A stretch of 64,000 bases of DNA from Rhodocyclaceae bacterium (lineage in GTDB: Bacteria; Pseudomonadota; Gammaproteobacteria; Burkholderiales; Rhodocyclaceae). This document shows positions 28,232-53,325 of the stretch, in pieces. The number at the start of each line of letters is the position of its first letter. Positions within the stretch are counted from its first letter, which is position 1. A program made the translations under genes and the position numbers. The notes under the pieces were generated by a model. The model saw nothing but the letters and a program-made list of their open reading frames with translations. It was not told the origin of the DNA and did no database searches. The stretch spans positions 79,017 through 143,016 of the forward strand of contig JACFMQ010000005.1 of assembly GCA_019455325.1 (NCBI GenBank). Reading direction: 5' to 3'.

Positions 28232-29551
28232 CTAAGGTTCCGCTGTCGCCATCTTCTCGATGTGCGCGGTGGTGTCGCGGGTGCGTTCCGCGAGCTTGCG
28301 GACCTCGTCGGCGACGACCGCGAATCCGCGCCCGCTCTCGCCCGCCCGGGCAGCTTCGATGGCGGCGTTGAGTGCGAGCAGATTGGTCTGGTCGGCGATC
28401 TCCTTGATCGTGCCCACGAGCTCGTTGATGCGGCGCAGCGTCGCTTCCAGCTTGCCCTGTTGCTGCTCCATCGCCTCGCGTTGCTCCTGCTCGCGCAGTT
28501 GAGTGTCGATGTCGGTCAGTGCACCGACGACGCGCAGCGGGCTGCCGTCCTGACTTCGGCGCGTCTGGGCCAGGGCACGGAACCAGCGGTATTCGCCGGT
28601 CTTGAGCGCGAGACGGTGCGGCCGGTCGTACGGGGTCTGGCCGCTGCGGTCGTCGACGTGGGCGAGAAAGGCCTTGAACACCTGGTCGCGATCGTCCGGG
28701 TGGATACGGCTGGCCCAGGCGTCGAGCGTGTTCGGAAAGTCACTCTCGTCGGTGTAGCCCAGCAGGCGCCGGAGTTGCTGCGACCACCACACGGTGTTGG
28801 CCGTGTCGAGGGCCTTGCCGGCGCGGATCTCGATGTCCCACAGCCCGTCGCTCAGCAGCTCGCGCACCAGCTCGAAGCGGTCCAGGCTGCGGTCGAGCAG
28901 CGCCTCGCGTTCCAGCCTCTCGTGGATGTCCAGCAGCGAGCCGGCAACCCGTAGCGGGTCGCCGCCCGGTCCCCGCAGCGTCGTGCCTATGGCCCTGAAC
29001 CAGCGGTATTCGCCGCTCTTGGTGGCGAGTCGATAGTCGATGTCATAGGGCGTATTCCCGCTGCTGTCGGCAAGGTGGGCGGCGAAGGCGGTGAGCACGC
29101 GTTTCGTATCCTCCGGGTGTATGCGACTGCGCCAGCTCTCCAGGCGGTTGGGGAAATCGGTTTCGTCCTCGAAACCGAGCAGCTGACGCAACTGGCGTGA
29201 CCACCACACCATACTTGCGGCGCTGGCCGGATCGCCGTCAGCGATACTGATGTCCCACAGGCCCTCGCCGCTGGCGCGGCTAATCAGGTCAAAGCGTTCG
29301 GCAAGGCGGTCGGCCTCGCTGCTGGCAGCGAACAGCGCGGTGCGCAGCTGTCCCGCCTCCATCTCCAGCGATTCGAGCGCGCGTCGTGTCGCCGCGTGAC
29401 GGTCGAGCAGCGCGCCGTAGGCTGCATCCAGACGCATGGACAGCCGTGCAAGCCGCTTCGGCCCGCTGAAGGTCGCGGTGAATGTGGCGCCGGTGTCGAG
29501 CGCGTCGGCGAAGTATTCGAGATGGCGCAGCCATTTACCGGTGGAAAACAC
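28232..29551 (-). CDS. PAS-PAS methyl-accepting chemotaxis protein (soluble, short)
   Basis: A 439-residue chemoreceptor without membrane segments. After a helical start come two closely related PAS domains (each with [24 protein letters not shown] and [22 protein letters not shown]) and an MCP signalling hairpin ([43 protein letters not shown]). The protein stops 20 residues after the tip, so the return helix and usual methylation sites are missing, as in BdlA-type receptors. The start is taken as GTG 29551, preceded by GGGAG. It lies 52 bp downstream of the cobW gene on the same strand and is probably transcribed with it from the sigma-54 promoter at 30922. Confidence 0.85.
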
Positions 29552-29603
29552 GATGGCTTGTCTCCCTTGAGGATTTGCGTTGAGAGATGCCGGTGGCCGT
29601 CGC

Positions 29604-30878
29604 TCAGGCGCGGCTGCCGGCGGCGCGGCGGGCGAAGCGCTTGGGCTGCACGAACCAGGCATCGAGCGCCATGCCGCCGCGCGGGGCAACCGGCATGCGC
29701 TGGCTCAGCCAGCAGCGGGTGGCGAGCATCGGCTGTGCGGCGCTGATGCGGGCGGCGGCGGCGTCGCCCGGGAGTTCGGCCAGCGCCTGGCGGATGGAAT
29801 CGATCGCCGCCGCATCGAGATCCTGCACGATGAACACCAGGCGTCCGCAGCGATCGGCAAAGCCACCGCCCTCGGGCCAGGCCGGCAGGCGGAGCGCGGG
29901 ATAGGCGGTGTGCTGCACGCACTGGATGACGTGCGGCAGGGGATCGCCGGCTACGTTCATCAGACCCTTCATCCGGAGGATCTTCGCGCCATGGACGGCG
30001 AGGATGCCGCCCACCGCCACGGCGAAGCCGAGCCATGCCACCGGCGCGTCGAAGCGGATGACGAAGGACGACACCGTGCCGTCATGGTGCCGGGCCGGCG
30101 GGCGGCGCAATGGCATGCGCGCCTTGGTCCATTGCGGCGTGGCCACCGCGGACATTGCAGCTTTCTGCGCCTGCTCGCGTTCGTCCGAGAGCCAGCGGAC
30201 CACGTCCGGCAGCTTGTCGCCGATCGAGTAGATGCCGCTGCCGAAGAGCTGGTCCGGCGCCACCTTGCCGTGTCGTACCTCGATCCGGAGGGCGCCCGGG
30301 TTGAGGAGGTCGAGCTGCGCTTCCAGTCGCGTCCGGGTGGCGGTGTTGGTCAGGTCCGTCTTGGTGATCAGCAGGCGGTCGGCCATCGCCACCTGCCGCA
30401 GCGCCTCGCGATGCCGGCCGAGCTGTTCGCAGCCGTGGCTGGCGTCGACCGCAGTGAGCACGCTGTCGCAGACGTAGCGCGCCGCGACGAAGCGTTCTTC
30501 CATCAGCGTCTGCACCACCGGCACCGGGTCGGCGAGGCCGGTGGTCTCGATGACCACCCGCGACAGCGCCGGAATTTCGCGGCGCGAGAAGCGTTGGTGG
30601 AGCTGCCTTAAGGCGCGCACGAGATCGCCCTGCACGCTGCAGCAGATGCAGCCGGAATCCAGTAGCAGGGTGCTGTCGTCCAGCGTGTCGACCAGGTAGT
30701 GGTCGATGCCGATTTCACCGAATTCGTTGATGAGCAGGGCGGTCCCTGCCATCGCCGGGTCCTTCATCAACCGGTTCAGCAGGGTCGTCTTGCCCGTACC
30801 CAGGAAGCCGGTGAGCAGGCTGACCGGGATGCGATCGATCGGGCGGCGGGTCGGCCGCGACGCAGCAGGGCTGGGCAT
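29604..30878 (-). CDS. CobW/COG0523-family GTPase, probable metallochaperone
   Basis: A 424-residue G3E GTPase. Visible are Walker [10 protein letters not shown] (about residue 23), switch region [10 protein letters not shown], the metal-binding SGCICCSV (CxCC), and the guanine motif ITKTD. The C-terminal CobW domain (about 260-380) is present. Such proteins deliver zinc, cobalt or iron to client enzymes. It is divergent from the thiolase gene of the ketone cluster. A sigma-54 promoter points at it, and the presumed enhancer palindrome between the two operons could serve both. A natural client would be the metal-dependent carboxylase encoded at 38612-46340; this is inference. Confidence 0.87.
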
Positions 30879-30921
30879 GTTTGTCTCCGGTATCGTTCTT
30901 GATGAAGCAGGCCGGAACGAT

Positions 30922-30936
30922 GCAAAGGCCATGCCA
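30922..30936 (-). promoter_or_regulatory. Sigma-54 promoter of cobW-chemoreceptor operon
   Basis: On the minus strand TGGCAT-N5-TTGC, one mismatch from the -24/-12 consensus, 44 bp before the cobW-type start. The palindrome at 31044-31060 lies about 115 bp upstream. Confidence 0.75.
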
Positions 30937-31043
30937 CCGCATAAAGGCGTCGGCAATCCCGTCGAGGCAGTGGCACCGCGGTACCCATGACGGCAGTCGC
31001 CGGCTGAATGCGTACTGGAATCGAACGCGAGGATCTGGGCGAG

Positions 31044-31060
31044 CGTCCGACAATCGGACG
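31044..31060. promoter_or_regulatory. Presumed enhancer palindrome shared by two divergent sigma-54 promoters
   Basis: CGTCCGACAATCGGACG is a 17-bp near-perfect dyad (8-bp arms with one mismatched pair around a central A). It matches the copies at 35609, 35633 and 46481. It lies 92 bp from the thiolase promoter and about 115 bp from the cobW promoter, the distances at which sigma-54 activators bind. Confidence 0.7.
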
Positions 31061-31143
31061 CCGGGGCGCCGCCGGCGTTCCGCCGGTGCCTCTTTGGCTT
31101 TGGAAAATCAGGGGTTTGCGAGCGTCATCCGAAGCCGCGCCTT

Positions 31144-31158
31144 TGGCATGGCCGATGC
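31144..31158 (+). promoter_or_regulatory. Sigma-54 promoter of the thiolase-ligase operon
   Basis: TGGCAT-N5-ATGC keeps the essential GG and GC of the -24/-12 elements with two mismatches elsewhere. It ends 41 bp before the thiolase ATG. Confidence 0.65.
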
Positions 31159-31199
31159 TAAATGACCCTGCGGATCATTTACTCACAAGGGGAAACAAC

Positions 31200-32366
31200 A
31201 TGGGCGTCAGCATTATCGGTTGGGCACATTCGTCGTTCGGACGGCTGGACATGGTCGACCTCGAGTCGCTCATCGTCGGCGTCAGCCGCGGCGCACTGCA
31301 GGATGCGGGAGTTCCGGCCGGGGATGTCGATGGCATCTGGCTGGGCCACCTGAACGGGGGCCTGGTGCCGGAGATCTTCTGTTCGTCGCTCGTCCTGCAG
31401 GCCGCTCCCGCCTTGCGCTGGTGCCCCGCGACCCGCGTCGAGAATGCCTGCGCGTCCGGCGCCGCGGCGGTCTATGCGGCCTGCGATGCGATCGAGGCCG
31501 GGCGGGCGCGCATCGCGCTGGTGGTCGGCGCCGAGAAGATGACGGCGGTGTCCGGCCCCGAGGTCACACAGGTGCTGGCGTCGGCCTCCTACGTTCCCGA
31601 AGAGGCGGCCAAGGGGCTGACCTTCCCGGGGTTGTTCGGCCAACTGGCCGAGCAGTACTTCGGCCGCTACGGCGACCACGCAGCGACACTGGCCCGCATC
31701 GCCGCGAAGAATCATGCCAACGGCACGCGCAATCCCTGGGCACACATGCGCCGGGATCTGGGTTTCGAGTTCTGCAACACCGAGTCGGAGCGCAATCCGC
31801 GGATTGCCGGCCCGCTGCGCAAGACCGACTGCTCCCTGGTGTCCGACGGTGCAGCCGCGCTCGTGCTGGCCGACGATGCGGTGGCCGCGGGTGCCCGCCG
31901 CGCGGTGCGCCTGCGCGCCCGCGCCCAGGTCAATGACTTCCTGCCGGTTTCCAGCCGCGACGTCCTCGGTTTTGAGGGCCCGCGGCGAGCCTGGCAGCGG
32001 GCGCTGGCCGATGCCCGATGCGCGGTGCACGACCTCTCGCTCGCCGAGGTGCACGACTGCTTCACCATCGCCGAACTGCTGACCTACGAGGCCATGGGGC
32101 TGGCCGCACCCGGCCACGGCGGAGACTGCCTTCTGGACGGCAGCGTCCATGCGGGCGGCAGGCTCCCGGTGAATCCGTCCGGCGGTCTCAAGGCCAAGGG
32201 GCATCCGATCGGCGCGACGGGGGTGTCCATGCACGTGATGGCGGCCATGCAACTGACCGGGGAGGCGCTCGACATGCAGGTCAAGGATGCGAGTCTGGCG
32301 GGTGTCTTCAACATGGGCGGCGCGGCGGTCGCCAACTACGTGAGTATCCTGGAGCGCACAAAATGA
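31200..32366 (+). CDS. Thiolase (SCP2-like acyl-CoA acetyltransferase)
   Basis: A 388-residue thiolase. The acyl-carrying cysteine is Cys84 in VENACASGAAAV; the catalytic histidine is in GGLKAKGHPIGATG near the C-terminus; the last motif reads NMGGAAVANY in place of the CGGG loop of classical thiolases, as in the SCP2-like branch. It would split a 3-oxoacyl-CoA into acetyl-CoA and a shortened acyl-CoA. AAGGGG precedes the ATG at 31200. The stop overlaps the start of the acyl-CoA ligase gene as ATGA, so the two enzymes are translated together. Confidence 0.88.
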   Translation: MGVSIIGWAHSSFGRLDMVDLESLIVGVSRGALQDAGVPAGDVDGIWLGHLNGGLVPEIFCSSLVLQAAPALRWCPATRVENACASGAAAVYAACDAIEAGRARIALVVGAEKMTAVSGPEVTQVLASASYVPEEAAKGLTFPGLFGQLAEQYFGRYGDHAATLARIAAKNHANGTRNPWAHMRRDLGFEFCNTESERNPRIAGPLRKTDCSLVSDGAAALVLADDAVAAGARRAVRLRARAQVNDFLPVSSRDVLGFEGPRRAWQRALADARCAVHDLSLAEVHDCFTIAELLTYEAMGLAAPGHGGDCLLDGSVHAGGRLPVNPSGGLKAKGHPIGATGVSMHVMAAMQLTGEALDMQVKDASLAGVFNMGGAAVANYVSILERTK

Positions 32367-33916
32367 ACCTCGCCCAACTGCTCGCGCGTTCGGCGCGGAC
32401 CTTTCCAGAGCGGCCCGCAGTCATGGCCGGCCCCCGCCTGCTGCATACCTATGCCGGGCTGGCCGCGCGCTCGGCCCGGCTGGCCGGCTTTCTGCGGCGC
32501 AACCTCAGGCTGGAGCCCGGGGAGCGGGTGGCCATCCACATGACGAACTGCCCCGAATACCTCGAATGCCTTTACGGGGTGCTGTGGGCGGGGCTGGTGG
32601 CGGTGCCGATCAATGCCAAGCTGCATCCGCGCGAGACGGCCTTCATCCTCGCCGATGCCGGCGCCCGCCTGGCGTGCGTGTCGCGCGATCTGGCGGAGGG
32701 ACTGGGCGCCTGCCTCGGCGGCAACGGCGGCGTGCTGCCGACGCTGGTGCCCGGCGACGCGCTGTACACCCGTGCGGTGTCCGCCCTGGCGATTCCGGTA
32801 CAGGAACGTCTGCCCGATGACCTGGCCTGGCTGTTCTACACCTCGGGTACGACCGGCAAGCCCAAAGGGGTGATGCTCAGCCACCGCAACCTGCTGACGA
32901 TGACGTCCTGCTTCTTCATGGACGTGGACCCGGTCGCCGAGGCCGATGTGGCGGTCTATGCGGCACCGTTGTCGCACGGCGCCGGCCTCTACAGCTTCCC
33001 CTACGTGCTGCGGGGCTGCCGCCACGTCGTCCCGGAGTCCGGAGGGTTCGATCCGGCCGAGCTGATCGCGCTTGCGGCCCGGGTTGGGCGGCTGGCCATG
33101 TTCGTCGCGCCGACCATGGTGAAGCGGCTCACCGACCGGGTGAAGCAGGCGGGCAGCGATCCGTCGGGTTTCCAGACCATCGTCTACGGCGGTGGTCCGA
33201 TGTACGCCGAGGACATCGCCGAGGCGCTCACGGTGATGGGGCCGCGCTTCGTGCAGATCTACGGCCAGGGCGAATCGCCGATGACCATCACCGCGCTGTC
33301 GCGCGCCATCCTGGCCGACCGCAGCGATCCTGCCTGGGCGTCGCGCATCGCCTCGGTCGGGGTCGCGCAGTCGCTCGTCGAAGTCCGCATCGTCGATGCC
33401 GAGGGTCGGCCGCTGGCGAACGACGAGGTTGGCGAGGTGGTGGTCCGCGGCGAGACGGTGATGGCGGGCTACTGGCAGCAGCCCGAGGCGAGCGCGGCTG
33501 CGCTGCGTGGCGGATGGCTGTGGACGGGCGACATAGGGGCGATGGATTCGCACGGCTTCGTCACGCTCAAGGATCGCTCCAAGGACGTGATCATCTCGGG
33601 CGGCGCCAACATCTACCCGCGCGAGGTGGAGGAGGTACTCGTCACCCATCCTGCGGTCAGGGAGGTGTCGGTGGTCGGCCGGCGCGACGAGGACTGGGGC
33701 GAGGTGGTGATTGCCTTCGTGGTGGTCGATCCGGAGGCCGGCGTCGCTGCCGAAGAACTGGACCGCCACTGCCTGGACCGCATCGCCCGCTTCAAGCGGC
33801 CCAAGGAATACCGCTTCGTCGCCGCCCTGCCGAAGAACAACTACGGCAAGGTGCTGAAGACGGCCCTGCGCGAAATGCTGGAAGACACGGCAGCGGCGCC
33901 GTCCTGCCGCGTTTGA
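32363..33916 (+). CDS. Acyl-CoA ligase (adenylate-forming)
   Basis: A 517-residue class I adenylate-forming enzyme. The phosphate loop is FYTSGTTGKPKGVML (about residue 155), the acyl-adenylate motif is IYGQGESPMT, the hinge is DRSKDVIISGGANIYPREVEEVL, and the catalytic lysine is in PKNNYGKVLKTALRE. It would activate an organic acid to its CoA thioester with ATP. Next to a 3-oxoacid-forming carboxylase and a thiolase, the likely substrate is the carboxylation product (a benzoylacetate-like or alkanoyl-acetate acid). In-frame codons upstream of 32363 are shadow of the thiolase gene. Confidence 0.88.
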   Translation: MNLAQLLARSARTFPERPAVMAGPRLLHTYAGLAARSARLAGFLRRNLRLEPGERVAIHMTNCPEYLECLYGVLWAGLVAVPINAKLHPRETAFILADAGARLACVSRDLAEGLGACLGGNGGVLPTLVPGDALYTRAVSALAIPVQERLPDDLAWLFYTSGTTGKPKGVMLSHRNLLTMTSCFFMDVDPVAEADVAVYAAPLSHGAGLYSFPYVLRGCRHVVPESGGFDPAELIALAARVGRLAMFVAPTMVKRLTDRVKQAGSDPSGFQTIVYGGGPMYAEDIAEALTVMGPRFVQIYGQGESPMTITALSRAILADRSDPAWASRIASVGVAQSLVEVRIVDAEGRPLANDEVGEVVVRGETVMAGYWQQPEASAAALRGGWLWTGDIGAMDSHGFVTLKDRSKDVIISGGANIYPREVEEVLVTHPAVREVSVVGRRDEDWGEVVIAFVVVDPEAGVAAEELDRHCLDRIARFKRPKEYRFVAALPKNNYGKVLKTALREMLEDTAAAPSCRV

Positions 33917-33960
33917 GTGATGCGATCCGCCCGGCGGCATCGAATGGTCCGTTCACTGCC

Positions 33961-33977
33961 CGCCTTGAATTCGAACG
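33961..33977. promoter_or_regulatory. Weak copy of the presumed enhancer palindrome
   Basis: CGCCTTGAATTCGAACG keeps the right half (TCGAACG) of the 17-bp palindrome but little of the left half (9 of 17 positions). Its centre is about 107 bp upstream of the sigma-54 promoter at 34076, the same spacing as the good copies. Confidence 0.35.
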
Positions 33978-34075
33978 AAGCCTGGTCGCGATCGACCGCA
34001 AACGAAACGACGACGCGGCTCGCCGGAATCCGGCTTCGGGTTCGTTCTTGTTTTGAATCAGGTGGTTGGCCGTTC

Positions 34076-34090
34076 TGGCACTGCCTTTGC
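34076..34090 (+). promoter_or_regulatory. Sigma-54 promoter of the CoA-transferase operon
   Basis: TGGCAC-N5-TTGC, a perfect -24/-12 match, followed by T. It ends 93 bp before the GTG start of the first CoA-transferase subunit. Confidence 0.85.
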
Positions 34091-34183
34091 TGTGCAAGTC
34101 ATGCGGGCGGAAATGCTCCGCGCGGGAATTCCGGCCAATGCGAATTCCGGGAAACGGCGCAACTCAAATCGAAGGAATGCAAA

Positions 34184-34906
34184 GTGTCTTCAAGAAAGCG
34201 ATATCCGACGGCAGCTTCGGCATTGAAAGACCTGCTGCACGATGACATGACGATCATGTCGGGCGGCTTCGGCCTGTGCGGCATTCCCGCCATTTTGATC
34301 GACGCGGTGCTCGAATCCGGGGTGAAGGGGCTGACCCTCATCTCGAACAATCCGGGCAGCGATGGCTTCGGTCTCGGCAAGCTTTTCGACACCCGCCAGG
34401 TGCGCAAGCTGATTTGCTCCTATGCGGGCGAGAATGCCCAGTTCGCGCGCCAGTACATGGCCGGTGAAGTGGAAGTGGAATTCAACCCGCAGGGCACCCT
34501 GGCCGAGCGCATCCGCGCCGGCGGTGCCGGCATTCCCGCCTTCTACACCCCTACCGGCATCGGCACGGTAATCGCCGAAGGCAAGCCGACGGCCGAATTC
34601 GACGGCAAGACCTATGTGCTCGAGCGGGGCCTGCGGGCGGATCTGGCTCTGGTGCACGCCTGGCAGGGCGATACCGAGGGCAATCTTGTCTATCGCATGA
34701 CGGCGCGCAACTTCAACCCCATGATGGCTACGGCTGCAGCCGCGACTGTGGCTGAGGTCGAGCAACTGGTCGAGCCGGGCGCAATGGCTCCGGACCATAT
34801 CGTCACGCCCGGCATCTATGTGGATCGCATCGTGCTCGTGGAGAGGGTCGACAAGCGGATCGAACAGCGGACGGTGCGCCGTCGCACGGCCTTGGCGGAG
34901 GAGTGA
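34184..34906 (+). CDS. 3-oxoacid CoA-transferase, subunit A
   Basis: A 240-residue subunit of a family I CoA-transferase. Family features are MSGGFGLCGIPAILIDAVLESGVKGLTLISNNPG and the later FNPQGTLAERIRAGGAGIPAFYTPTGIGT. I chose GTG 34184 because GAAGGA lies 7 bp upstream and the length then fits the family (about 235). With subunit B it would exchange CoA between a donor such as succinyl-CoA and a 3-oxoacid. The genes of A and B are 3 bp apart. Confidence 0.9.
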   Translation: MSSRKRYPTAASALKDLLHDDMTIMSGGFGLCGIPAILIDAVLESGVKGLTLISNNPGSDGFGLGKLFDTRQVRKLICSYAGENAQFARQYMAGEVEVEFNPQGTLAERIRAGGAGIPAFYTPTGIGTVIAEGKPTAEFDGKTYVLERGLRADLALVHAWQGDTEGNLVYRMTARNFNPMMATAAAATVAEVEQLVEPGAMAPDHIVTPGIYVDRIVLVERVDKRIEQRTVRRRTALAEE

Positions 34907-34909: not shown

Positions 34910-35545
34910 ATGGCCTGGACAAGAGATCAAATGGCGGCACGTGCCGCCCGGGAATTGCGTGACGGCTATTACGTCAACCTGGGCATCGGCATTCCCACCC
35001 TGGTGGCGAATCACGTGCCGCCCGGCATGTCCATTCAGCTCCAGAGCGAGAACGGCATGCTCGGCATGGGCCCTTTCCCGTGGGAAGGCGAGGAGGATGC
35101 CGACCTGATTAACGCCGGCAAGCAGACCATCACCACGCTGCCGACCACCAGCTTTTTCGACAGCGCCACCTCCTTCGGCATGATCCGCGGCGGCCATATC
35201 CAGCTGTCCATGCTGGGGGCGCTGCAGGTGTCGGAGAAGGGCGACCTGGCGAACTGGGCCGTGCCGGGCAAGATGATCAAGGGCATAGGCGGCGCGATGG
35301 ATCTGGTGGCCGGGGTCGGCCGCGTCGTGGTGATCATGGAACACACCGCGCGCGGGGAGCCCAAGATCGTCCGCGAGTGCTCGCTGCCGCTGACCGGGAC
35401 GGGCGTGGTGGATCTCATCGTGACCGATCTCTGCGTATTCGAAGTGCGCGACGGCGGTCTGGCGCTGGTCGATCTCGCGCCGGATACCAGTGTGGACGAT
35501 GTGAGGGCCGCCACCGCCGTCGATTTCGTCGTCGCCCTGCAATAG
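34910..35545 (+). CDS. 3-oxoacid CoA-transferase, subunit B
   Basis: A 211-residue subunit carrying the catalytic glutamate of family I CoA-transferases in [11 protein letters not shown] (about residue 47). [15 protein letters not shown] and [22 protein letters not shown] are family hallmarks. The usual partners are acetoacetate-like acids. Its presence beside an ATP-dependent ligase gives the cluster two ways to activate a 3-oxoacid. Confidence 0.92.
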
Positions 35546-35608: not shown

Positions 35609-35625
35609 CGTTCGATAATCGGACT
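35609..35625. promoter_or_regulatory. Enhancer-like palindrome, first copy before the activator gene
   Basis: CGTTCGATAATCGGACT, one base from the copy at 31044 in its right half. It is 24 bp (centre to centre) from the second copy, which puts the two near the same face of the helix. Confidence 0.7.
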
Positions 35626-35632: not shown

Positions 35633-35649
35633 CGTTCGATTATCGAACG
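35633..35649. promoter_or_regulatory. Enhancer-like palindrome, second copy before the activator gene
   Basis: CGTTCGATTATCGAACG is a perfect dyad of two 8-bp arms around one base, the best copy in the window. It lies 83 bp upstream of the sigma-54 promoter at 35724. Confidence 0.75.
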
Positions 35650-35723: not shown

Positions 35724-35738
35724 TGGCGCAGAATTTGC
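35724..35738 (+). promoter_or_regulatory. Sigma-54 promoter before the activator gene
   Basis: TGGCGC-N5-TTGC, one mismatch in the -24 element. It would start a transcript with a leader of about 270 nt ahead of the activator gene, suggesting self-activation. Confidence 0.65.
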
Positions 35739-35889
35739 TGGGTCCGAACATCGGTCTGCACGGCGCTTGATTTTTGCGCGGATCGAGACCAGTCTGACAA
35801 GCCATCCCGGTCTGTCAAGACGGGGCCGCGTGCCGAGACACACGCCGGTCCCGTTTGCGGGAACAACACGGGATCGAAGAAGCGGTCGT

Positions 35890-38325: not shown

Positions 38326-38342
38326 AAACCGGAAATCGAACG
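38326..38342. promoter_or_regulatory. Partial copy of the presumed enhancer palindrome before the carboxylase operon
   Basis: AAACCGGAAATCGAACG keeps the right arm ATCGAACG exactly and part of the left arm (11 of 17). Its centre is about 110 bp upstream of the promoter at 38446, in line with the other copies. Confidence 0.45.
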
Positions 38343-38445: not shown

Positions 38446-38460
38446 TGGCACGGGGCTTGC
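38446..38460 (+). promoter_or_regulatory. Sigma-54 promoter of the ketone carboxylase operon
   Basis: TGGCAC-N5-TTGC, a perfect -24/-12 match, in an AT-rich stretch. It predicts a start near 38472 and a 140-nt leader before the first carboxylase gene. Confidence 0.88.
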
Positions 38461-38611
38461 GATAAGAGTTTTCGGAAGGTCCGGTTTCGTCGATTCAGTC
38501 CGTTGTGTCACGGCTGCGGCGACGAAATCTGGAATCCAGACGATCCGAGTACCAGGAACGGAAGTCGGAAGAATCTCAATCCACGAACGAGATGGCAGGA
38601 GGTAATGCAGC

Positions 38612-43162: not shown

Positions 43163-43206
43163 GGGCTGCAGGACGACCATCGACCATCTTTCAGACAGGA
43201 TCGAAC

Positions 43207-45483: not shown

Positions 45484-46340
45484 GCCGGAGCCTCGCCGAC
45501 GATCTGCCCGGCGGCACGGGCAACGGGCGCCTGCGGGTGTGGCTCAAGTCTTCGGCCTACACCCGTCGGCTTCTCCTGGGCGCAGGGGGCGACCCCTGGG
45601 CCAGCGCGCCGCAGTACCTCGCCTACTTCAGTCAGGCCCAGGGCCTGCTGCGCCCCGATGTCGCCGTGGTCGAAGTTGGCGAGCTGTTCGACGCCTGGCT
45701 GGCTCGCCACCCGACGGTGGCGGTGGAGCTGGGCGCCAAGCGGCGCCTCTCGTATCCGCTGCGCAAGCTGCTCGAACAGGAGGCGCCGCGCCAGCTCCTC
45801 GCCGAGGTGGTCGAGGCCGTGATCGCCAACCTGCGGGGTCAGACCCCGCTGGTACTGGCGATGCCGTCGCCCAGGCATTGGTTGCACCATGCCAATGCGC
45901 TGGTGGGACGGGGCGACGCCGAACTGGACCCGGACGGCATCGAGGATGCCGCCATGTACATGGCCGATCTGCTGCGCTCGGTGTCGGCCTACGCGGTGGG
46001 CGGCGTGCTGCTGGAAGAACATCCAGCCGACATCGGCGTGGCCGACGTCGAGCGTTATCGCCCGCTCATCAATGTCGCCAAGCACTATCGCTGGTCGCTG
46101 GTGCTGCGGCCGCGCGGCGATGCAGAGCGGGTGTCGCTGCCGCCGGCCGATTTCGACGCGCTCATCTCGCCAATCGTCCGGGCCGCCGCGTCCATGTCCT
46201 CGGGCGTGGATGTCAGCGCCGCACTGTGGGCCGGAAGCGCCTTGCCGGTGCTGGGGCCGGGTCAGTTCTACTTCGTCGAGATCCCGGCCGAACAGCCCCC
46301 CGAACTGGTGCTGGAAAGCCTTGCCCGGTTACGAGCGTGA
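45480..46340 (+). CDS. apcE: Fifth (epsilon-like) subunit of the ketone carboxylase
   Basis: A 286-residue protein encoded as the last gene of the unit, overlapping apcD by 4 bp. It has no HyuA or HyuB motifs; alternating strands and helices (VLAMPSPRHWL ... AVGGVLLEEHP ... WSLVLRPRGD) suggest a barrel-like fold, perhaps related to the uroporphyrinogen-decarboxylase/MetE group. Acetophenone carboxylase has a fifth, loosely bound subunit of about this size, which is needed for activity. Naming rests on position and length. Confidence 0.65.
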   Translation: MSRSLADDLPGGTGNGRLRVWLKSSAYTRRLLLGAGGDPWASAPQYLAYFSQAQGLLRPDVAVVEVGELFDAWLARHPTVAVELGAKRRLSYPLRKLLEQEAPRQLLAEVVEAVIANLRGQTPLVLAMPSPRHWLHHANALVGRGDAELDPDGIEDAAMYMADLLRSVSAYAVGGVLLEEHPADIGVADVERYRPLINVAKHYRWSLVLRPRGDAERVSLPPADFDALISPIVRAAASMSSGVDVSAALWAGSALPVLGPGQFYFVEIPAEQPPELVLESLARLRA

Positions 46341-46480: not shown

Positions 46481-46497
46481 CGTTCGATAACCGGGCG
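46481..46497. promoter_or_regulatory. Enhancer-like palindrome before the envelope module
   Basis: CGTTCGATAACCGGGCG matches the copy at 35609 in 14 of 17 positions. Its centre lies 126 bp upstream of the sigma-54 promoter at 46615. Confidence 0.65.
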
Positions 46498-46614
46498 GAG
46501 ATGCGGCGGATTACCGGACGGGCAATCCGGAATGTTGCTACGCCGCAATGGGATAGCCGGGCTGGTGTTTTTTTAACCAATTGATAATAAACATATAAAT
46601 ATGAAATTTCTGGC

Positions 46615-46629
46615 TGGCACCTAATTTGC
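46615..46629 (+). promoter_or_regulatory. Sigma-54 promoter of the envelope module
   Basis: TGGCAC-N5-TTGC followed by T, a perfect -24/-12 match, 270 bp before the first gene (46899). The AT-rich flank (46570-46610) would help bending. Confidence 0.88.
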
Positions 46630-46864
46630 TGACTGGATCGTGCGGCGGTTCGGAATGTGTTCCGGCCTGCTCCGCTGCGAAATCGGATGGCGTGGTGGAA
46701 GGCCGGATCGGGGGGGCAGGCGTTTTTCAATTGCCGCAGGAATGACAACCCTCGCCGGCGGCATTTCGACAATTTGGAAACACCTTGGAGCAGGTATGGA
46801 GACAATAAAAATCTGTCCGCGGCGCGGCCCGGCGACACCAATGGCTGCTGGCTTGAACGGCAGG

Positions 46865-46884: not shown

Positions 46885-46898
46885 AGGCGGGAGGCAGC

Positions 46899-47915
46899 AT
46901 GCTTAAGGCCATCGGCAAATTTGGGCGTGGTGCGCAGCTGGTGTCCTCGGTAGGCACTTCGTTGTTGCCCGTGGTCATCATTGGCGGCCTGCTGTACGCA
47001 GCACTTTTCGTCAAGGCCGAGCCGGCCGTCGACAGTCTGGCGATCCATCCGATCGAGCGGCGGGATGTCTTCTACGGCCTGACGGCGCCCGGTGCCGGGA
47101 CGCTGTGGGCGGTGGGCTCCTACGGCAAGATCGTCCGCAGTGACGATGGCGGCCAGTCCTGGCGCATCCAGCCAACACCCGTAGTCAGCCACCTGCAGGC
47201 CATCGCCGCCTGGGACGGCGAGCGCGCGGTGGCGGTAGGCAACCGTGGCCTGGTGGTGATTACCGCCGACGGCGGCAAGACCTGGAAGGAAGCGCAGGCT
47301 CCGCGTTCGGAGGTGGCCAACAAGCTGATGCAGGTGCGGGCCTATCCCGGAGGGGTGGCCTGGGCCGTGGGGGAAGTCGGTGCGGTGCTCCGGAGCCTGG
47401 ACTACGGCACCACCTGGGAACGGGTGATGCCGGAGAAGGATCAGGCCTGGAACGACATCTTCTTTGACGGCCCGGCGGGCTGGATGGTCGGCGAGTTCGG
47501 CCAGATTCTGCGCACGACCGATGGCGGCGCGAACTGGGCGCCTGTCGAGAGTCCGGCCGGGAACAGCCTGATGTCGGTGCATTTCCGCGACGAGCGGCAC
47601 GGTGTCGCCGTGGGTTTGTCCGGTACGGCACTGGTGACTGCGGACGGAGGCCAGCACTGGCGCCAGGCTCCGCAGCTGACGCGGGAGCACCTCAACTGCG
47701 TGGTCTGGGACGGCCGCTCCTGGGTGGCCGTAGGAGACAAGGGGATACGCGTTACAGCCGATGCCGCAGGCAAGGACTGGAAGGCTGGCCGCATCGACGA
47801 GCGCGATCTGTCCTGGCACACGCAGATCGTCAGTACCGGCGATGCCCATGTGCTGGCCGGTGCAAACCTCTCGGTGCTGCGCGATGACGCATTGCACGTC
47901 TTTGGCCGCGACTGA
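46899..47915 (+). CDS. YCF48/BNR-repeat beta-propeller protein
   Basis: A 338-residue protein with one N-terminal membrane anchor (SLLPVVIIGGLLYAALFVKA) and then a propeller of YCF48-like repeats, each with a core such as GKIVRSDDGGQSW, GLVVITADGGKTW, GAVLRSLDYGTTW, GQILRTTDGGANW and GTALVTADGGQHW. Such proteins assist assembly of membrane complexes or bind partners in the periplasm. It is the first gene of a unit with an RND transporter and two outer-membrane/periplasmic proteins, and probably scaffolds them. Confidence 0.82.
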   Translation: MLKAIGKFGRGAQLVSSVGTSLLPVVIIGGLLYAALFVKAEPAVDSLAIHPIERRDVFYGLTAPGAGTLWAVGSYGKIVRSDDGGQSWRIQPTPVVSHLQAIAAWDGERAVAVGNRGLVVITADGGKTWKEAQAPRSEVANKLMQVRAYPGGVAWAVGEVGAVLRSLDYGTTWERVMPEKDQAWNDIFFDGPAGWMVGEFGQILRTTDGGANWAPVESPAGNSLMSVHFRDERHGVAVGLSGTALVTADGGQHWRQAPQLTREHLNCVVWDGRSWVAVGDKGIRVTADAAGKDWKAGRIDERDLSWHTQIVSTGDAHVLAGANLSVLRDDALHVFGRD

Positions 47916-47957
47916 CGGAATCCGCTCAGGCGGCATCACGAGAACAAGGAAACAGGA

Positions 47958-50363
47958 ATGAAAAACGCGACGTTCAAGGCGCTGACCAGGCTGATCGACA
48001 CGATCCTGCGGTATCGGGTCGCCGTGCTGGCAGTGATCATCGGCGTCACCGCGCTGATGGGCTATTTCGCCTCCCGGATCGAGGTGAAAACCGTTTTCAG
48101 CGACTTGCTGCCCCGCAATCACGCCTATGTGGAAGTCAATGACAGGTTCAAGCAGACCTTCGGCGGCTCCAACATGGTGAGCATCATGCTGGAGGTGGAA
48201 GAGGGTGACGTTTTCAACATGATGGTGTTGAAGAAGGTTCAATCGATCACCCAGGAACTACAGAAGGTCGAGGGGGTGGACACCTACCAGATCGTCTCGC
48301 TCGCCTCGAAGAAGATGAAGGAGGTGCGCGCTTCCACCGAGGGCATCGAGTCGCGCCCGCTGATGTGGCCCAACCTGCCGAGGGATGCCGCCGACATCGC
48401 GGTGCTGCGCGAGGCGGTGCTGAACAATCCGCTGGTCTATGGCCCCTATGTGTCGTTCGACATGCGGGCGACGCTGATCACCGCCGACTTCACCGACGGC
48501 ACGGTTGACTACCTCAAGGCCTATCGGCAGATCGCCGAGATCGCCGAGCGGGCGCGTGGCGACGGCGTGCTGGTGCGCCTGGTCGGGGAGCCCATTCTCT
48601 ACGGTCTGGTGAACCACTATCTGACCGAGACCTTCCAGATCTTCCTGGTGACGGTCGGCGCGCTGTTCCTGCTGCTGCTGCTCATCACTCGCACCTGGCA
48701 CGGCACCATGCTGCCGCTGGCGACGGGGGTGGTCAGCGCGATCTGGGCGCTGGGGGCGGCCAAACTGATGGGGTTTCACCTCGACCCGCTGGTGATCGTG
48801 GTGGCCTTTCTGATCACTGCGCAGGCGATTTCCAACTCGGTGCAGCTGATCTCGCGCTTCGACGACGAGGTTGCGGCTGGCGCCGATTCGGCCACCGCAG
48901 CGGCGCGCGCCAGCATCCTCAATCTGTTCAAGCCGGGCATGCTGGCCATCGTCGCCGATGCCGGCTGCGTGCTGGTGGTGGCGCTGACGCCCATCCCGAT
49001 GCTGGAGAAGATCTCCTACATCGGCACGGTCTGGATCCTCTCCATCATGTTCAGTGCGATGGTGCTGACGCCGGTGCTGCTGTCCTGGTGCGGTGTGCGC
49101 AAGCGCCTGGTGCATCCGTTCAACGTGATGCCTTTGTTGCAGAAGATTCTCGGCCTGTGCTCGGTCATCGTCACCTCGCGGCTGCGCCTCACCGTGGTGC
49201 TGGGAGCGGTGGTGGTGTTCGCGGTGTCGGGTATCTACGCCTTCAATCTGAAGGTGGGCGATGCCAATCCGGGCTCGCCCATCCTGTGGCCGGACTCGAC
49301 CTACAACCAGGATGCGGCCGCGATCAACCACAAGTTCCAGGGTTCGGACCGGATGTTCGTGGTGGTCGCCGGCAAGCACGAAGGTGCGCTCAAGGAACCG
49401 AGCGTGCTGGAGGGCATGGAGCGCTTCCAGAAGTACATGGAGGCCCAGCCGGAGGTCGGCGGCAGTATCTCGCTGGCCGATATCCTGCCGGCGGTAAAGC
49501 GCGTGGTGCGCGAAGGCAATGCGCGCTATCAGGAGCTGGGCAACAGTGCCGACGAGAACGGCGAGCTGGTGTACATGTTCGTCTCCGGTGCCGATCCCGG
49601 CGACATGGATCGCTACGCCGATCCACAGGGACTCAACGGCGCGGTGACGCTGTTCTTCCGGGATCACCAGGGCGAGACCATCCGTACCGCAATCGCACGA
49701 GTGAAGGAGTATGTCGCCGCCAATCCGCTGCAGGACGCCGAGTTCCTGCTCGCCGGCGGCCTGGTCGGCGTACTCGCGGCGGTCAACGAGGTGATCTTCG
49801 CCGGCCAGATCGAAGCCATCGCGTTCGCTCTGCTGGTGCTGGTGGTGTGCTGCATGGTGACCTACCGATCCACCGTGGCGGGCATGTTCTTCATGGTGCC
49901 GGTCTTGCTGTCCAACACGCTCACCTTCAGCTACATGGCGTGGAAGGGTATCGGCATGAACATCAACACCCTGCCGGTGGTTGCACTCGGCATCGGACTG
50001 GGCGTCGATTACAGCTTCTACATCGTCGACGGCATCCGTGAGGAGCTGCACCGCCACAAGGACGTGGGCCGCGCCATCATCAGGTCGATCGCGACCTCGG
50101 GTAAGGGCGTGCTCATCACCGCACTGACCCTGGTGACCAGTGTGGTGCTGTGGAGTTTCTCGTCGCTGCGACTGCAGGCCGACATGGGCATCCTCATCGC
50201 CATCTGGCTGTTCATCTCCGCCGCGTCCGCACTCTTCCTGATGCCGGCCATGGTCTATGTGTTCCGGCCGGAGTTCATCGTCGGTTCCAGGCGTCATCCC
50301 ATTGAACAGGCCGCCGAGTTCCAGCCCGCCGTGCTGCCTGTGATCCCGAGCAGTGCCCCTTGA
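47958..50363 (+). CDS. RND/MMPL-family transporter
   Basis: An 801-residue RND-superfamily protein with two six-helix bundles, each after a large periplasmic loop. Helix 1 is near residue 20; the second half repeats the pattern from about residue 400. The MMPL-type helix 4 region reads LVALGIGLGVDYSFYIVDGIREEL. Length and lack of a membrane-fusion partner nearby point to the hydrophobe-transporting MMPL/HpnN branch rather than a drug tripartite pump. Neighbours suggest it moves a hydrophobic ketone or related lipid across the envelope; the direction is unknown. Confidence 0.87.
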   Translation: MKNATFKALTRLIDTILRYRVAVLAVIIGVTALMGYFASRIEVKTVFSDLLPRNHAYVEVNDRFKQTFGGSNMVSIMLEVEEGDVFNMMVLKKVQSITQELQKVEGVDTYQIVSLASKKMKEVRASTEGIESRPLMWPNLPRDAADIAVLREAVLNNPLVYGPYVSFDMRATLITADFTDGTVDYLKAYRQIAEIAERARGDGVLVRLVGEPILYGLVNHYLTETFQIFLVTVGALFLLLLLITRTWHGTMLPLATGVVSAIWALGAAKLMGFHLDPLVIVVAFLITAQAISNSVQLISRFDDEVAAGADSATAAARASILNLFKPGMLAIVADAGCVLVVALTPIPMLEKISYIGTVWILSIMFSAMVLTPVLLSWCGVRKRLVHPFNVMPLLQKILGLCSVIVTSRLRLTVVLGAVVVFAVSGIYAFNLKVGDANPGSPILWPDSTYNQDAAAINHKFQGSDRMFVVVAGKHEGALKEPSVLEGMERFQKYMEAQPEVGGSISLADILPAVKRVVREGNARYQELGNSADENGELVYMFVSGADPGDMDRYADPQGLNGAVTLFFRDHQGETIRTAIARVKEYVAANPLQDAEFLLAGGLVGVLAAVNEVIFAGQIEAIAFALLVLVVCCMVTYRSTVAGMFFMVPVLLSNTLTFSYMAWKGIGMNINTLPVVALGIGLGVDYSFYIVDGIREELHRHKDVGRAIIRSIATSGKGVLITALTLVTSVVLWSFSSLRLQADMGILIAIWLFISAASALFLMPAMVYVFRPEFIVGSRRHPIEQAAEFQPAVLPVIPSSAP

Positions 50364-50366
50364 CAA

Positions 50367-50390: not shown

Positions 50391-50432
50391 ACAGGGAAGT
50401 TTTTTCCACAACAACAGAAATGGAGGCGAAAG

Positions 50433-51950
50433 ATGAGACTCGATAACAGGCGCGCGCTCGCCGCGAGCATGGCCGTAGGCTTGGGTATGTTGTGCAAGCC
50501 CGGCCTTGGGCTGGCCGCAGACGGCATTGATGACAACGGCAACTATTTCCGGCTGGGTGGCTACGTCCGGGGCTGGGCGGCCTTCAATCTGCAGGATCAG
50601 CCCGAAACCAGAGGCAATGATCGAGGCAAGCTGTCGATGTTGCGCGGTTCCATCCTCCTTGATGCCGATGCCCGCACCGGGCCGATCAAATGGAAGGCGG
50701 TCGGTCGTCTGGACCGCGAGGTCAAGACCTCCTACCTGGATGATCTGGAGTCTCTGCGCAAGACCAATGGCACCACCGGCGGCGATCACGGCAGCATCCT
50801 GAATAACTACAACAACGAGGATCTGCGCGAGTTCTGGGGCGAGTTCAAGGCCGGCGACCGGACCACCTTCCGTCTCGGCAAGCAGCAGATCGTGTGGGGC
50901 GAGTCGGATTTCTTCCATGCGATGGACGTGGTGCACGGCTACGATCTGAGCTGGCGGCTGTTCTTCGAGGGCGAGAACGAGGAGTGGCGCAAGCCGCTGT
51001 GGCTGGCGAGCGTCAAGGTGGACGTGCCCGAGGCCGACGGCCAGATCCATGCCTACCTGCGCCCTGGTCTGGATCGCTGCAAGGATATCGGCAACACCTA
51101 CGATGTCGGCGGCGGCCGCTGGTTCTTCCAGCCCTACCGCGGTTTCGACCTGACTGCGGTGACCAAGCTCGACTGCGATCACCCCGAGGCCGACCAGGAC
51201 GACTGGACTGGCGGCATCCGCTGGTCGGGCACGGCCGGATCGCTGGATTACTCGCTGGCTTACATCAGGGCCTTCGCCGCCGACCCGGTGGCGAACTCGG
51301 CGGCCGCACCTTACAAAAAGGCGCCGAAGGGTGCGCTGTTCGATCGGATCTACCCCCAGATCGACGTTTTCGGCGCCACCGTGAGCGGATACTCGGCGAC
51401 CTTCGACACGGTGTTCAGTGCCGAGATCGCCTACACCAAGGATCAGCCCTACAACGTCGGCACCGGCGCCCTGCTGGGCTTGGGCGGCATCAAGCTCAAG
51501 GACACGATCACGACGATGCTGCGCGCGGACAAGAACCTCAACCTGCAGAGCTTGCTCGGCACCAACCGGCCGTCCTTCTCGTCGGTTCAACTGTTCGACG
51601 TCTGGGTACGTGACTACGAGAAATCGGACGATCTCGCCCGCCTCTTCGCCTTCGGTGCCCCGCTGCCCGAGCACAACACCATCCTGACCGCCTTCACCGT
51701 CCTCAACTACGCCGGCGACACCATCAATCCGGGCCTCGCGGTCGGGGTCGACCTGACGAACGGCGGCGGCTTCGTGATCCCTAGCGTGGAGGTGGTGCTC
51801 GGCGACAAATGGCGGATGAAGGCCGAGGCCGATCTGTTCTGGAACAACGGCTCGGCGAAAACCCTGTTCGACCCCGATCGCTCGGTCCAGTTGTTCGGCT
51901 ATTTCGCCAAGAACAACCAATTCACCCTTCGTTTAACACGGCAGTTCTGA
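50433..51950 (+). CDS. DUF1302 outer-membrane protein
   Basis: A 505-residue protein with a signal peptide (GMLCKPGLGLAADG) and a sequence of alternating strands ending in RLTRQF, as outer-membrane beta-barrels do. The start of the mature part (FRLGGYVRGWAAFNLQDQPE) and EFWGEFKAGDRTTFRLGKQQIVWGESDFF match the DUF1302 family. In bacteria degrading terpenes, steroids or aromatics this family usually accompanies DUF1329 and RND proteins. It probably forms the outer-membrane channel of the module. GGAGGCG precedes the ATG. Confidence 0.83.
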   Translation: MRLDNRRALAASMAVGLGMLCKPGLGLAADGIDDNGNYFRLGGYVRGWAAFNLQDQPETRGNDRGKLSMLRGSILLDADARTGPIKWKAVGRLDREVKTSYLDDLESLRKTNGTTGGDHGSILNNYNNEDLREFWGEFKAGDRTTFRLGKQQIVWGESDFFHAMDVVHGYDLSWRLFFEGENEEWRKPLWLASVKVDVPEADGQIHAYLRPGLDRCKDIGNTYDVGGGRWFFQPYRGFDLTAVTKLDCDHPEADQDDWTGGIRWSGTAGSLDYSLAYIRAFAADPVANSAAAPYKKAPKGALFDRIYPQIDVFGATVSGYSATFDTVFSAEIAYTKDQPYNVGTGALLGLGGIKLKDTITTMLRADKNLNLQSLLGTNRPSFSSVQLFDVWVRDYEKSDDLARLFAFGAPLPEHNTILTAFTVLNYAGDTINPGLAVGVDLTNGGGFVIPSVEVVLGDKWRMKAEADLFWNNGSAKTLFDPDRSVQLFGYFAKNNQFTLRLTRQF

Positions 51951-51971
51951 TCCAAAAAAGGAGACACAAGC

Positions 51972-53282
51972 ATGGAAGCACTGAACAAAGCCACGCGGCC
52001 GACCGGCAGGCAGGTTCTACAGTCGCTGGCAATCTGCACCGGCCTTGCTCTCGCCGGCCAGCTTCACGCGGGCGAATTGCAGGCCGGCTTCGTCATCACC
52101 AAGGACAACTACGACAAGATCAAGGGCGAGACCTTCGAGGGCAAGACCATCGCCAGCATGGTCCCCGACAGGCTCGAAGCGATGATCAAGAATTTCGGCC
52201 TGACGATCAAACTTGCACATTCCAAGCCGATCGAGATGGATCCGAAGTACGTAGCGGCGACCAGGGAGTCCGCCAAGAGCGTCAAGTTCGATCCGGCCAC
52301 GCGCACGATGAGCAATTGGAAGGCGGGTATGCCCTTCCCGCCGGATACGATCAAGCTCGACGACCCCAATGCCGGGGACAAGGTCATCTGGAACCTGCGC
52401 GCGGCCACCTACGGCGCCACCATGGACCTGCGTGACATCTCCTTCGTGTTCATCAGCGGCGCCACCGGCGTCGAGCGGGTGCAGCGCTGGCAGTCGCGCC
52501 GTTACTACATGGAAGGTCGCCTGGATGGCGGGCCAGTGACCGAGGGTGGTGGTGACATCGCGCAGAAGACCTACCTCTTCGCCACCAGCCCGCAGGACAT
52601 CCGCGGCCTGGGCACCTTCTCCATCCGCTACAACGACCCGACCTCGGCCAAGCCGGACGACACCTGGGCCTACCTGAAGTCGGTGCGGCGTACCCGCCGG
52701 CTGTCCGGCGGCGCCTGGATGGACCCGATCGGCGGCACCGACCAGCTTTACGACGACTGGGACATCTGGGACGCCTTCCCGACCAAGTATCGGCAGAACA
52801 AGCTGGTCGGCAAGCGCTGGGTGCTGGCGGTGGCGCACAGCCCGCTGGTCAGCGTGGACAGCGGCAAGCGCGACACCCCGGCGGAGTTCCCGTCGGTCGG
52901 GTTGACCGAGGCGCCTTACTTCTTCCCGGCCAAGCACATCGAATGGGAGCCGCGCGAAGTGTACGTGGTGGAAGGCACGCCGCCGCCGGAGCACCCTTAC
53001 AGCAAGAAGGTCGTGTACATGGAGGTCGCCTTCCCGCGCCCCTACCTGGGCGAGATGTACGACCAGAAGGGTGAGTTCTGGAAATACATGATCTTCCAGA
53101 ACCGGCCGGACATTGGCGACGACGGCTACAAGGCGGTGATGCCGGTGGTCGGCCACGTCATCGACGTCAAGCGCAACCACTCCACCACCTGGTCGGCCAA
53201 CATGAAGGCCAATCCCAAGGGCGTGAAGGAAAGCGACGTGTCGCTCAGCAAGTTGGAGGAGGTGGCGACCGGCGGAAAATGA
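51972..53282 (+). CDS. DUF1329 periplasmic/outer-membrane-associated protein
   Basis: A 436-residue secreted protein (signal about residues 14-35, ending LHAGE). It belongs to the DUF1329 family, with a LolA/LolB-like fold that could hold a hydrophobic ligand: ISFVFISGATGVERVQRWQSRRYYMEGR, LKSVRRTRRLSGGAWMDPIGGTDQLYDDWDIWDAFP. It would shuttle or accept a hydrophobic substrate between the RND transporter and the DUF1302 barrel. It lies 21 bp after DUF1302, with AAAGGAGA before its ATG. Confidence 0.83.
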   Translation: MEALNKATRPTGRQVLQSLAICTGLALAGQLHAGELQAGFVITKDNYDKIKGETFEGKTIASMVPDRLEAMIKNFGLTIKLAHSKPIEMDPKYVAATRESAKSVKFDPATRTMSNWKAGMPFPPDTIKLDDPNAGDKVIWNLRAATYGATMDLRDISFVFISGATGVERVQRWQSRRYYMEGRLDGGPVTEGGGDIAQKTYLFATSPQDIRGLGTFSIRYNDPTSAKPDDTWAYLKSVRRTRRLSGGAWMDPIGGTDQLYDDWDIWDAFPTKYRQNKLVGKRWVLAVAHSPLVSVDSGKRDTPAEFPSVGLTEAPYFFPAKHIEWEPREVYVVEGTPPPEHPYSKKVVYMEVAFPRPYLGEMYDQKGEFWKYMIFQNRPDIGDDGYKAVMPVVGHVIDVKRNHSTTWSANMKANPKGVKESDVSLSKLEEVATGGK

Positions 53283-53296
53283 CGGACTGAGCCGAT

Positions 53297-53325
53297 ACGG
53301 GGAGCGGATCTTTCCGCATCCCCGT
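53297..53325 (+). terminator. Hairpin closing the catabolic block
   Basis: ACGGGGAGCGG pairs with CCGCATCCCCGT (one bulged A, 6-nt loop), 14 bp after the DUF1329 stop. No T tract, but it marks the end of the envelope module. Confidence 0.6.

Follow-up and report, generated by a model that had tools for sequence, protein, structure and literature searches.

The window analysed here is a stretch of 64,000 nucleotides from a Rhodocyclaceae bacterium, and positions are counted from its first letter. Its block from 28232 to 53325 comprises 16 predicted genes in six apparent transcription units: a chemoreceptor gene with cobW on the minus strand and, on the plus strand, a thiolase–ligase pair, the A and B subunits of a CoA-transferase, an activator, five carboxylase genes, and an envelope operon in the order YCF48–MMPL–DUF1302–DUF1329. 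Judged from its sequence, this 25-kb block very probably forms one sigma-54 regulon for ketone carboxylation, in which an activator of the AcoR/AcxR type would read a palindrome found upstream of the sigma-54 promoters.

The activator gene (36023..38038, plus strand) encodes a protein with a GAF region, an AAA+ region, and a Fis-type helix-turn-helix (HTH) whose recognition helix reads GIAKSTVY; the corresponding matches are to PF00158 (E 2.8e-62), the GAF family PF01590, and the Fis-type HTH family PF02954. The AAA+ motifs GETGVGK, LFLDEIG, and GSFTGA identify it as a bacterial enhancer-binding protein (bEBP). In a set of 40 orthologues (identity 45% or higher, the window protein counted), the loop is GAFTGA in 28, GSFTGA in 11, and different in one. 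As a preliminary description of this DNA had stated, the activator is the only one of the block's 16 predicted genes with a DNA-binding domain in Pfam. The 4.46-Mb genome has one match to rpoN.

Promoters of the −24/−12 type lie at the six places given by the preliminary description. They precede the cobW operon (30921..30936, minus strand, TGGCATGGCCTTTGCA) and, on the plus strand, the thiolase–ligase operon (31144..31159, TGGCATGGCCGATGCT, a weak element), the CoA-transferase operon (34076..34091, TGGCACTGCCTTTGCT), the activator gene (35724..35739, TGGCGCAGAATTTGCT, where it would serve autoregulation), the carboxylase operon (38446..38461, TGGCACGGGGCTTGCG), and the envelope operon (46615..46630, TGGCACCTAATTTGCT). 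The pattern TGGCAC-N5-TTGCW with at most one mismatch occurs at seven places in the window against 1.57 expected, a count that none of 100 shuffles reached, and five of the seven are the promoters at 30921–30936 (minus), 34076, 35724, 38446, and 46615. Three elements had been called perfect. Those at 34076 and 46615 are, and the one at 38446 becomes so only when any final base is allowed; the number therefore depends on the consensus chosen.

The palindrome as originally proposed, CGTTCGAT-N-ATCGAACG, is matched at 16 of 16 positions at 35633, 14 of 16 at 35609, and 13 of 16 at both 46481 and 31044. Taking the window together with related loci refines it to CGTYCGA-N3-TCGRACG, and copies are scored below over its 14 defined positions. 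One full copy (31044..31060, CGTCCGACAATCGGACG, 14/14) is common to the divergent cobW and thiolase promoters and has a weak second copy beside it (31011..31027, 11/14, one half perfect). Two copies stand before the activator gene, at 35609..35625 (CGTTCGATAATCGGACT, 13/14) and, 24 bp away, at 35633..35649 (CGTTCGATTATCGAACG, 14/14). The envelope operon has one at 46481..46497 (CGTTCGATAACCGGGCG, 12/14) and a weak second one 23 bp from it at 46504..46520 (CGGCGGATTACCGGACG, 11/14). The CoA-transferase and carboxylase operons have half-conserved copies, at 33961..33977 (CGCCTTGAATTCGAACG) and 38326..38342 (AAACCGGAAATCGAACG), each scoring 10/14 with one half perfect. From site centre to the −24 element the distances are 116 bp for cobW, 92 bp for thiolase, 83 and 107 bp for the activator, 126 and 103 bp for the envelope operon, 107 bp for the CoA-transferase, and 112 bp for the carboxylase. 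The arrangement described earlier thus stands: four promoters with a good copy, one copy being shared, at 80–130 bp (83–126 as measured), and half-matching copies at a similar distance from the other two.

Good copies are scarce in the rest of the genome. The refined motif has two perfect matches, both in the block, and three matches with one mismatch, one of them in the block. Two other sites within one mismatch, C9:72644 and C31:295876, were considered as further regulon members and rejected; both lie inside open reading frames, and no −24/−12 element within one mismatch was found in the 4 kb around either. The original form of the palindrome occurs at 25 places with up to three mismatches, against one for a reversed control; the two places with up to two mismatches are both upstream of the activator, and two of the 23 with three mismatches are in the block. 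Genome patterns combining a half-site with a promoter were also tried and not retained (14 and 16 places, with 1 and 9 for the reversed controls). The full palindrome scores above 11/14 at only two of those places, both in the block.

The motif recurs in related genomes, which the preliminary description had proposed to scan. Genome contigs were scanned with the Apc-alpha-like carboxylase subunit, which yielded 93 relatives and, after reduction, 79 distinct loci, mostly from alpha-, beta-, and gammaproteobacteria together with some metagenome-assembled genomes with odd labels. Locus flanks reach 10 kb or stop where the contig does, which means that a gene missing from them is not proven absent. 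An upstream region qualified when the match started no more than 60 residues into the protein, met the identity threshold, and was preceded by 150 bases or more; 75 of the 79 loci have at least one such region. Sites scoring at least 12/14 were found upstream of the activator in 32 of 41 regions, cobW in 25 of 49, the first carboxylase gene (kcA) in 27 of 73, the YCF48 gene in five of nine, the thiolase in one of ten, the CoA-transferase in one of 16, and the ligase in none of 12. The total of 91 regions compares with a mean of 2.6 for 400 of the 1259 permuted half-sites, the highest permuted count (75) coming from a one-swap neighbour of the real motif. Other gap lengths gave 3–20 regions, the most (20) at a gap of 7, so that the signal is confined to the 3-base gap.

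Sites are present in 42 of the 75 loci with a usable upstream region and are spread over 25 labels assigned from record titles. With one locus per label, the selected site columns carry 1.2–1.7 bits and the flanks 0.2–0.3 bits for the activator, cobW, and kcA regions (at least 17 labels each; the YCF48 regions offer only four). The spacer, which the search ignored, carries 0.7–1.05 bits; A+T makes up 84% of it over 86 distinct sites, compared with 39% of these regions. Promoters recur as well: a −24/−12 element with up to two mismatches is found in nine of nine YCF48 regions, 41 of 73 kcA, 19 of 49 cobW, 15 of 41 activator, five of ten thiolase, and five of 16 CoA-transferase regions, compared with 4% of 2840 random 600-bp stretches. 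Homologues with at least 80% coverage are found for the activator in 42 of the 79 loci, for cobW in 45, and for the YCF48 gene in nine.

Sites and promoters keep a preferred geometry. Across 75 pairs of 40–175 bp from 33 loci, the window included, distances from the site centre to the best −24 element cluster near 51, 73, 83, 94, 105, 116, 126, 150, and 161 bp, and Rayleigh analysis gives its best phasing at 11.1 bp (R 0.54). Sites scoring 11/14, taken separately, are phased in the same way (42 pairs, R 0.50 at 10.95 bp). Neighbouring sites, among those listed, are typically 19–24 or 31–34 bp apart. Matches to the consensus for integration host factor (IHF) are found in the window between the enhancer and the thiolase promoter (31106..31118, plus, AATCAGGGGTTTG), in the CoA-transferase region (34056..34068, plus, AATCAGGTGGTTG), and in the envelope region (46574..46586, minus, TATCAATTGGTTA). 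These three are perfect; the activator and carboxylase promoters have one-mismatch matches, and the cobW enhancer–promoter interval in the window has none. Over the loci, the IHF consensus is matched perfectly in 13 of 71 enhancer–promoter intervals, where mononucleotide shuffles give 0.45, and 11 of the 13 are among the 26 carboxylase intervals.

Several lines of evidence connect the palindrome to the activator. Sites accompany the activator gene in several gene orders, whether it precedes the carboxylase, follows it on the opposite strand, or diverges from cobW. Of 51 loci that span 19 kb or more and include a kcA upstream region, 26 have both the activator and a site before kcA or cobW, seven the activator only, five a site only, and 13 neither (Fisher p 0.0007, with related loci counted as independent). 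Four of the five genomes with a site only carry an activator of 52–79% identity elsewhere; the threshold applied turned up none in the fifth (L108), where the one 12/14 site is doubtful. The search for an activator elsewhere covered ten of the 13 genomes with neither (L088, L098, and L100 were outside it). L057 has an activator of 79% elsewhere and a 12/14 site at its YCF48 gene, L078 and L107 have ones of 59–60%, four have relatives of 41–42% only, and in L110, L112, and L123 no activator relative was found elsewhere in the genome.

The recognition helix points the same way. Wherever an activator gene is preceded by a site and its HTH can be read (31 activators), the helix is G[IL]AKST[VL]Y; in a 32nd (L125) the HTH is lost at a contig end. 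L053, with GIARSTLY, and the Geobacter-labelled L088, with GVSRATFY, have no site. A rule linking the K-to-R change in the helix to a C-to-T change at the outer half-site base was dropped, as L101 combines the K helix with mixed bases. A search of the genome at E ≤ 1e-30 yielded 16 other bEBPs, all lacking G[IL]AKST[VL]Y, and the idea that one of these reads the palindrome in place of the activator was set aside. Of six distant activators with an IAKST helix, three (L211, L212, and L213) have the motif before their own gene. Together, conservation, co-occurrence, phasing, and the helix uphold the earlier proposal that the palindrome is the probable enhancer of the activator. Distant activators of 54–55% identity with IAKSTLY, at L218 (7871), L219 (10306 and 10338), and L213, have the motif upstream of their own genes and sit in the genomes of L057 (Zoogloea), L122 (Aromatoleum diolicum), and L056; with the same motif before these genes, two activators in one cell may share sites.

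A related palindrome also appears outside this clade. Seven acetone-carboxylase-type loci were fetched, assigned by 28–30% identity and gene order, and five of them have a related activator. Four of these five have a related palindrome, and L160 has none. At L158, TGTCCGATGTTCGGACA lies 81 bp before a perfect −24/−12 element.

A number of observations weigh against reading the whole block as one enhancer-linked regulon. Orthologous CoA-transferase and thiolase regions with a 12/14 site are rare (1/16 and 1/10), and both the carboxylase and the CoA-transferase site in this genome score 10/14. Seven of 33 activator loci lack a 12/14 site before kcA or cobW (four have 11/14), and in L078 and L107, whose activators of 59–60% lie elsewhere, the kcA sites reach only 10/14. 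Possession of the helix does not guarantee a site: L055, L063, L101, L106, and L121 carry it and have no site of at least 12/14 before their own activator, and the distant activators L205, L206, and L214 lack the motif before their own gene. L162, which has a 68% carboxylase, the same RND cassette, and sigma-54 promoters, has a 34–35% activator with GMSRSTLY, and the palindrome was not found there; this is possibly a case of a changed enhancer code. In most alphaproteobacterial loci outside Xanthobacter, the −24/−12 pattern was not found upstream of the activator. Phasing falls to R 0.35 at 10.5 bp and to 0.16 for kcA alone, and although none of 2000 uniform nulls reached the best R, the loci are related and the nulls overstate significance. 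A full-length relative of the chemoreceptor was found in none of the 79 loci within the fetched flanks.

The weak sites fit a narrower explanation, in which only the activator, cobW–thiolase, and envelope promoters use the enhancer, and the carboxylase and CoA-transferase depend on another activator or on read-through. We consider this improbable. Both operons have good −24/−12 elements and half-copies at phased distances, and kcA sites of at least 12/14 are not unusual in other loci. Of five other CoA-transferase regions with a recognised promoter, L048, L051, L052, and L101 have copies of 11–12/14 at 105 bp (L058 has none), and the A. vinelandii carboxylase orthologue, among the kcA regions listed, has an 11/14 copy at 113 bp; given these better orthologous copies, the half-matching ones at 33961 and 38326 are probably real. 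A different alternative has the palindrome as the operator of some other transcription factor encoded elsewhere, with the activator using other sites. Genomes with sites and no activator gene in the fetched flanks, the separation that can occur between activator gene and carboxylase, and helix-bearing activators without a site before their own gene would all accommodate it. It is nevertheless quite unlikely: the sites are phased at enhancer distances upstream of sigma-54 promoters, precede the activator gene itself in most loci and in several gene orders, and are matched by similar sites where related activators adjoin acetone carboxylases; the block has no other gene with a DNA-binding Pfam domain, and the motif precedes the genes of half of the distant paralogues examined. 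A chance origin of the promoters and palindromes in a genome rich in G+C deserves hardly any credence, even if loose searches would allow it. With two mismatches allowed, the longer promoter consensus has 13 places in the window where 11.5 are expected, which is no excess over chance (43 of 100 shuffles), and the 31144 promoter, which has two mismatches to it, therefore rests on position and orthologues. The refined palindrome with up to two mismatches is not significant in the window alone (six against 2.5; 7 of 100 shuffles), and with two mismatches it occurs at 77 places genome-wide against 110 for a reversed control, so that loose matches elsewhere in the genome are not above chance. The significance of the palindrome comes from its position, the whole genome, and other species rather than from the window count. 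Good copies are unique in the genome, and a chance origin is ruled out by the permuted half-sites, the other gap lengths, and the A+T spacer between poorly conserved flanks.

Membership in the proposed sigma-54 regulon can therefore be graded. The cobW, thiolase, activator, and envelope promoters belong to it with strong confidence and the carboxylase and CoA-transferase promoters likely do, whereas the chemoreceptor is placed there with lower confidence. The single switch of the preliminary description is supported for the ketone carboxylation block on sigma-54 promoters; it is weakened by the missing chemoreceptor relatives and by the half-sites at two promoters.

In the proposed mechanism, the activator would sense a signal through its GAF region, and its dimers would bind CGTYCGA-N3-TCGRACG, often as tandem copies separated by two or three turns of the helix. 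IHF-type bends may then help it contact sigma-54 RNA polymerase at −24/−12 elements 80–130 bp downstream, on a preferred helix face. It would turn on its own gene and a predicted five-subunit, ATP-dependent ketone carboxylase of the Apc class, together with the CoA ligase, CoA-transferase, and thiolase by which a 3-oxoacid would be activated and cleaved. The CobW-type protein and the Ame-type RND cassette would also be turned on, presumably for metal delivery and export, respectively.

The five carboxylase genes, all on the plus strand, encode an Apc alpha′-like subunit with Hydantoinase_A (kcA, 38612..40549), a small Acetone_carb_G subunit with two CxxC pairs (kcB, 40553..40951), an Apc alpha-like subunit with Hydantoinase_A (kcC, 41027..43162), a Hydantoinase_B subunit (43207..45483, 758 amino acids counted from an assumed ATG), and a fifth subunit (45480..46340) that matches no family and is assigned to the Apc epsilon position by place and size. 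The order is thus alpha′, gamma, alpha, beta, epsilon, as described for apcABCDE-bal of Aromatoleum aromaticum in the covered text of PMC5214803, and as in the acetophenone carboxylase system a CoA ligase would act next in the pathway. The Apc fingerprint R/KERiDsxG, expected in alpha and not in alpha′, appears as RERVDFQG at 134 of kcC and is absent from kcA, and the CxxC pairs of kcB correspond to the conserved cysteines of the gamma subunit. The best Protein Data Bank (PDB) match of the alpha-like subunit is 5L9W. The subunits score far below the curated NCBIfam equivalog cut-offs (344 of 1250 bits for ApcA, 122 of 250 for ApcB, and 578 of 1500 for ApcC). Acetone carboxylase (Acx) was rejected as an identity, since there are five genes with a second Hydantoinase_A subunit and not three. 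Flank genes in A. vinelandii and around the distant activators gave no clear substrate clue. Median identity across alpha-, beta-, and gammaproteobacteria is 88% for the alpha-like and Hydantoinase_B subunits (41027–45483) and near 57–60% for the activator and the fifth subunit, a contrast that suggests recent horizontal spread or strong constraint.

The partner enzymes, also on the plus strand, are a thiolase of the Thiolase_C_1 type (31200..32366, PRK07516), an AMP-forming acyl-CoA ligase (32363..33916), and subunits A (34184..34906, TIGR02429) and B (34910..35545, TIGR02428) of a 3-oxoacid CoA-transferase, both above cut-off and the latter with relatives in PDB. Their matches are generic and hold no substrate clue. 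The minus-strand unit consists of a CobW/COG0523-type GTPase recognised by Pfam, a putative metal chaperone (29604..30878), and the chemoreceptor (28232..29551; two PAS_3 domains and an MCP signal domain in Pfam), which begins with GTG preceded by AAGGGAG. The chemoreceptor start is 52 bp past the cobW stop, which probably places both in one operon. In addition to the 45 of 79 loci with CobW in the fetched flanks, 11 other hydantoinase-type carboxylase loci (seven of them acetone-carboxylase-type) were compared, and CobW is near none of them; this suggests a clade-specific metal need, with CobW serving this carboxylase clade.

The envelope operon, on the plus strand, encodes a YCF48/BNR-repeat protein (46899..47915, AmeC-like), an MMPL/HAE3 RND transporter (47958..50363, AmeD-like; the HAE3 model is the best match, below its curated cut-off), a DUF1302 outer-membrane protein (50433..51950, AmeA-like), and a DUF1329/LolA-like periplasmic protein (51972..53282, AmeB-like). 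Four corresponding proteins make up the AmeABCD monoterpene efflux system of Castellaniella defragrans (DUF1302 outer-membrane, DUF1329, COG4447, and HAE3 RND proteins in the part of PMC6394551 covered), a likeness seen in composition. In composition, what had been called an envelope transport module matches an Ame-type HAE3 RND efflux cassette, and it would act as one; unlike AmeABCD, it is linked to ketone carboxylation and a sigma-54 enhancer.

Parts of this system have counterparts in earlier work, each source being covered in part. Sigma-54 control of a ketone carboxylase has been described for AcxR (PMC2864759), and as with AcxR–acxABC of Xanthobacter and Cupriavidus metallidurans, a sigma-54 activator adjoins a hydantoinase-type carboxylase with a −24/−12 promoter; the acetone-carboxylase-type loci in the present comparison have similar palindromes as well. 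The differences are the five-subunit Apc-type enzyme in place of the three-subunit Acx and the presence of several enhancer-linked promoters that also serve ligase, thiolase, CoA-transferase, cobW, and export cassette. Apc regulation in A. aromaticum has been attributed to a predicted two-component system, adiRS (PMC4729919), whereas the block has a sigma-54 activator of the AcoR type. EtpR of Aromatoleum aromaticum, a predicted sigma-54 activator required for the p-hydroxyacetophenone pathway and encoded between catabolic and efflux clusters (PMC4630880), is alike by description; it serves a different pathway, and the text covered holds no enhancer sequence. Table 1 of the paper on the metagenomic fosmid p90H6 (PMC3676327) lists CobW, thiolase, ligase, CoA-transferase A and B, a sigma-54 activator, carboxylase subunits, and an RND cassette in the identical order, printed as an annotation table; the fosmid adds a Zn/Fe permease, and the paper concerns an amidase.

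The kinds of components are thus known (AcoR/AcxR-type activator, Apc-type carboxylase, Ame-type RND cassette), and their arrangement along the DNA has been printed before. The enhancer motif, the composite regulon, and the link to acetone-carboxylase activators are new within the literature covered. No enhancer for this activator or for AcxR is described there, a body of literature that does not include the original AcxR paper, which may contain one. On balance it seems probable, with moderate assurance, that CGTYCGA-WWW-TCGRACG read by a G[IL]AKST[VL]Y helix is the common enhancer code of ketone-carboxylase activators, serving Apc-type and, slightly changed, acetone carboxylases, and that the regulon moves between alpha-, beta-, and gammaproteobacterial genera with its enhancers, CobW metal delivery and product or solvent export included. 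An explicit enhancer sequence for this activator clade would make the regulon readable in dozens of genomes, with a membership wider than that found described for ketone carboxylases, and the activator and its promoters are a candidate sensor–promoter pair for ketones.

Two side observations concern neighbouring genes. The 60% activator gene of the L078 genome (L221) lies near genes for UbiD, a thiolase, and a further Hydantoinase_A protein, and an AbiV-type gene is also nearby. In the window, a FlgT-like three-domain protein is encoded at 24527–26251, just beyond the edge of the block.

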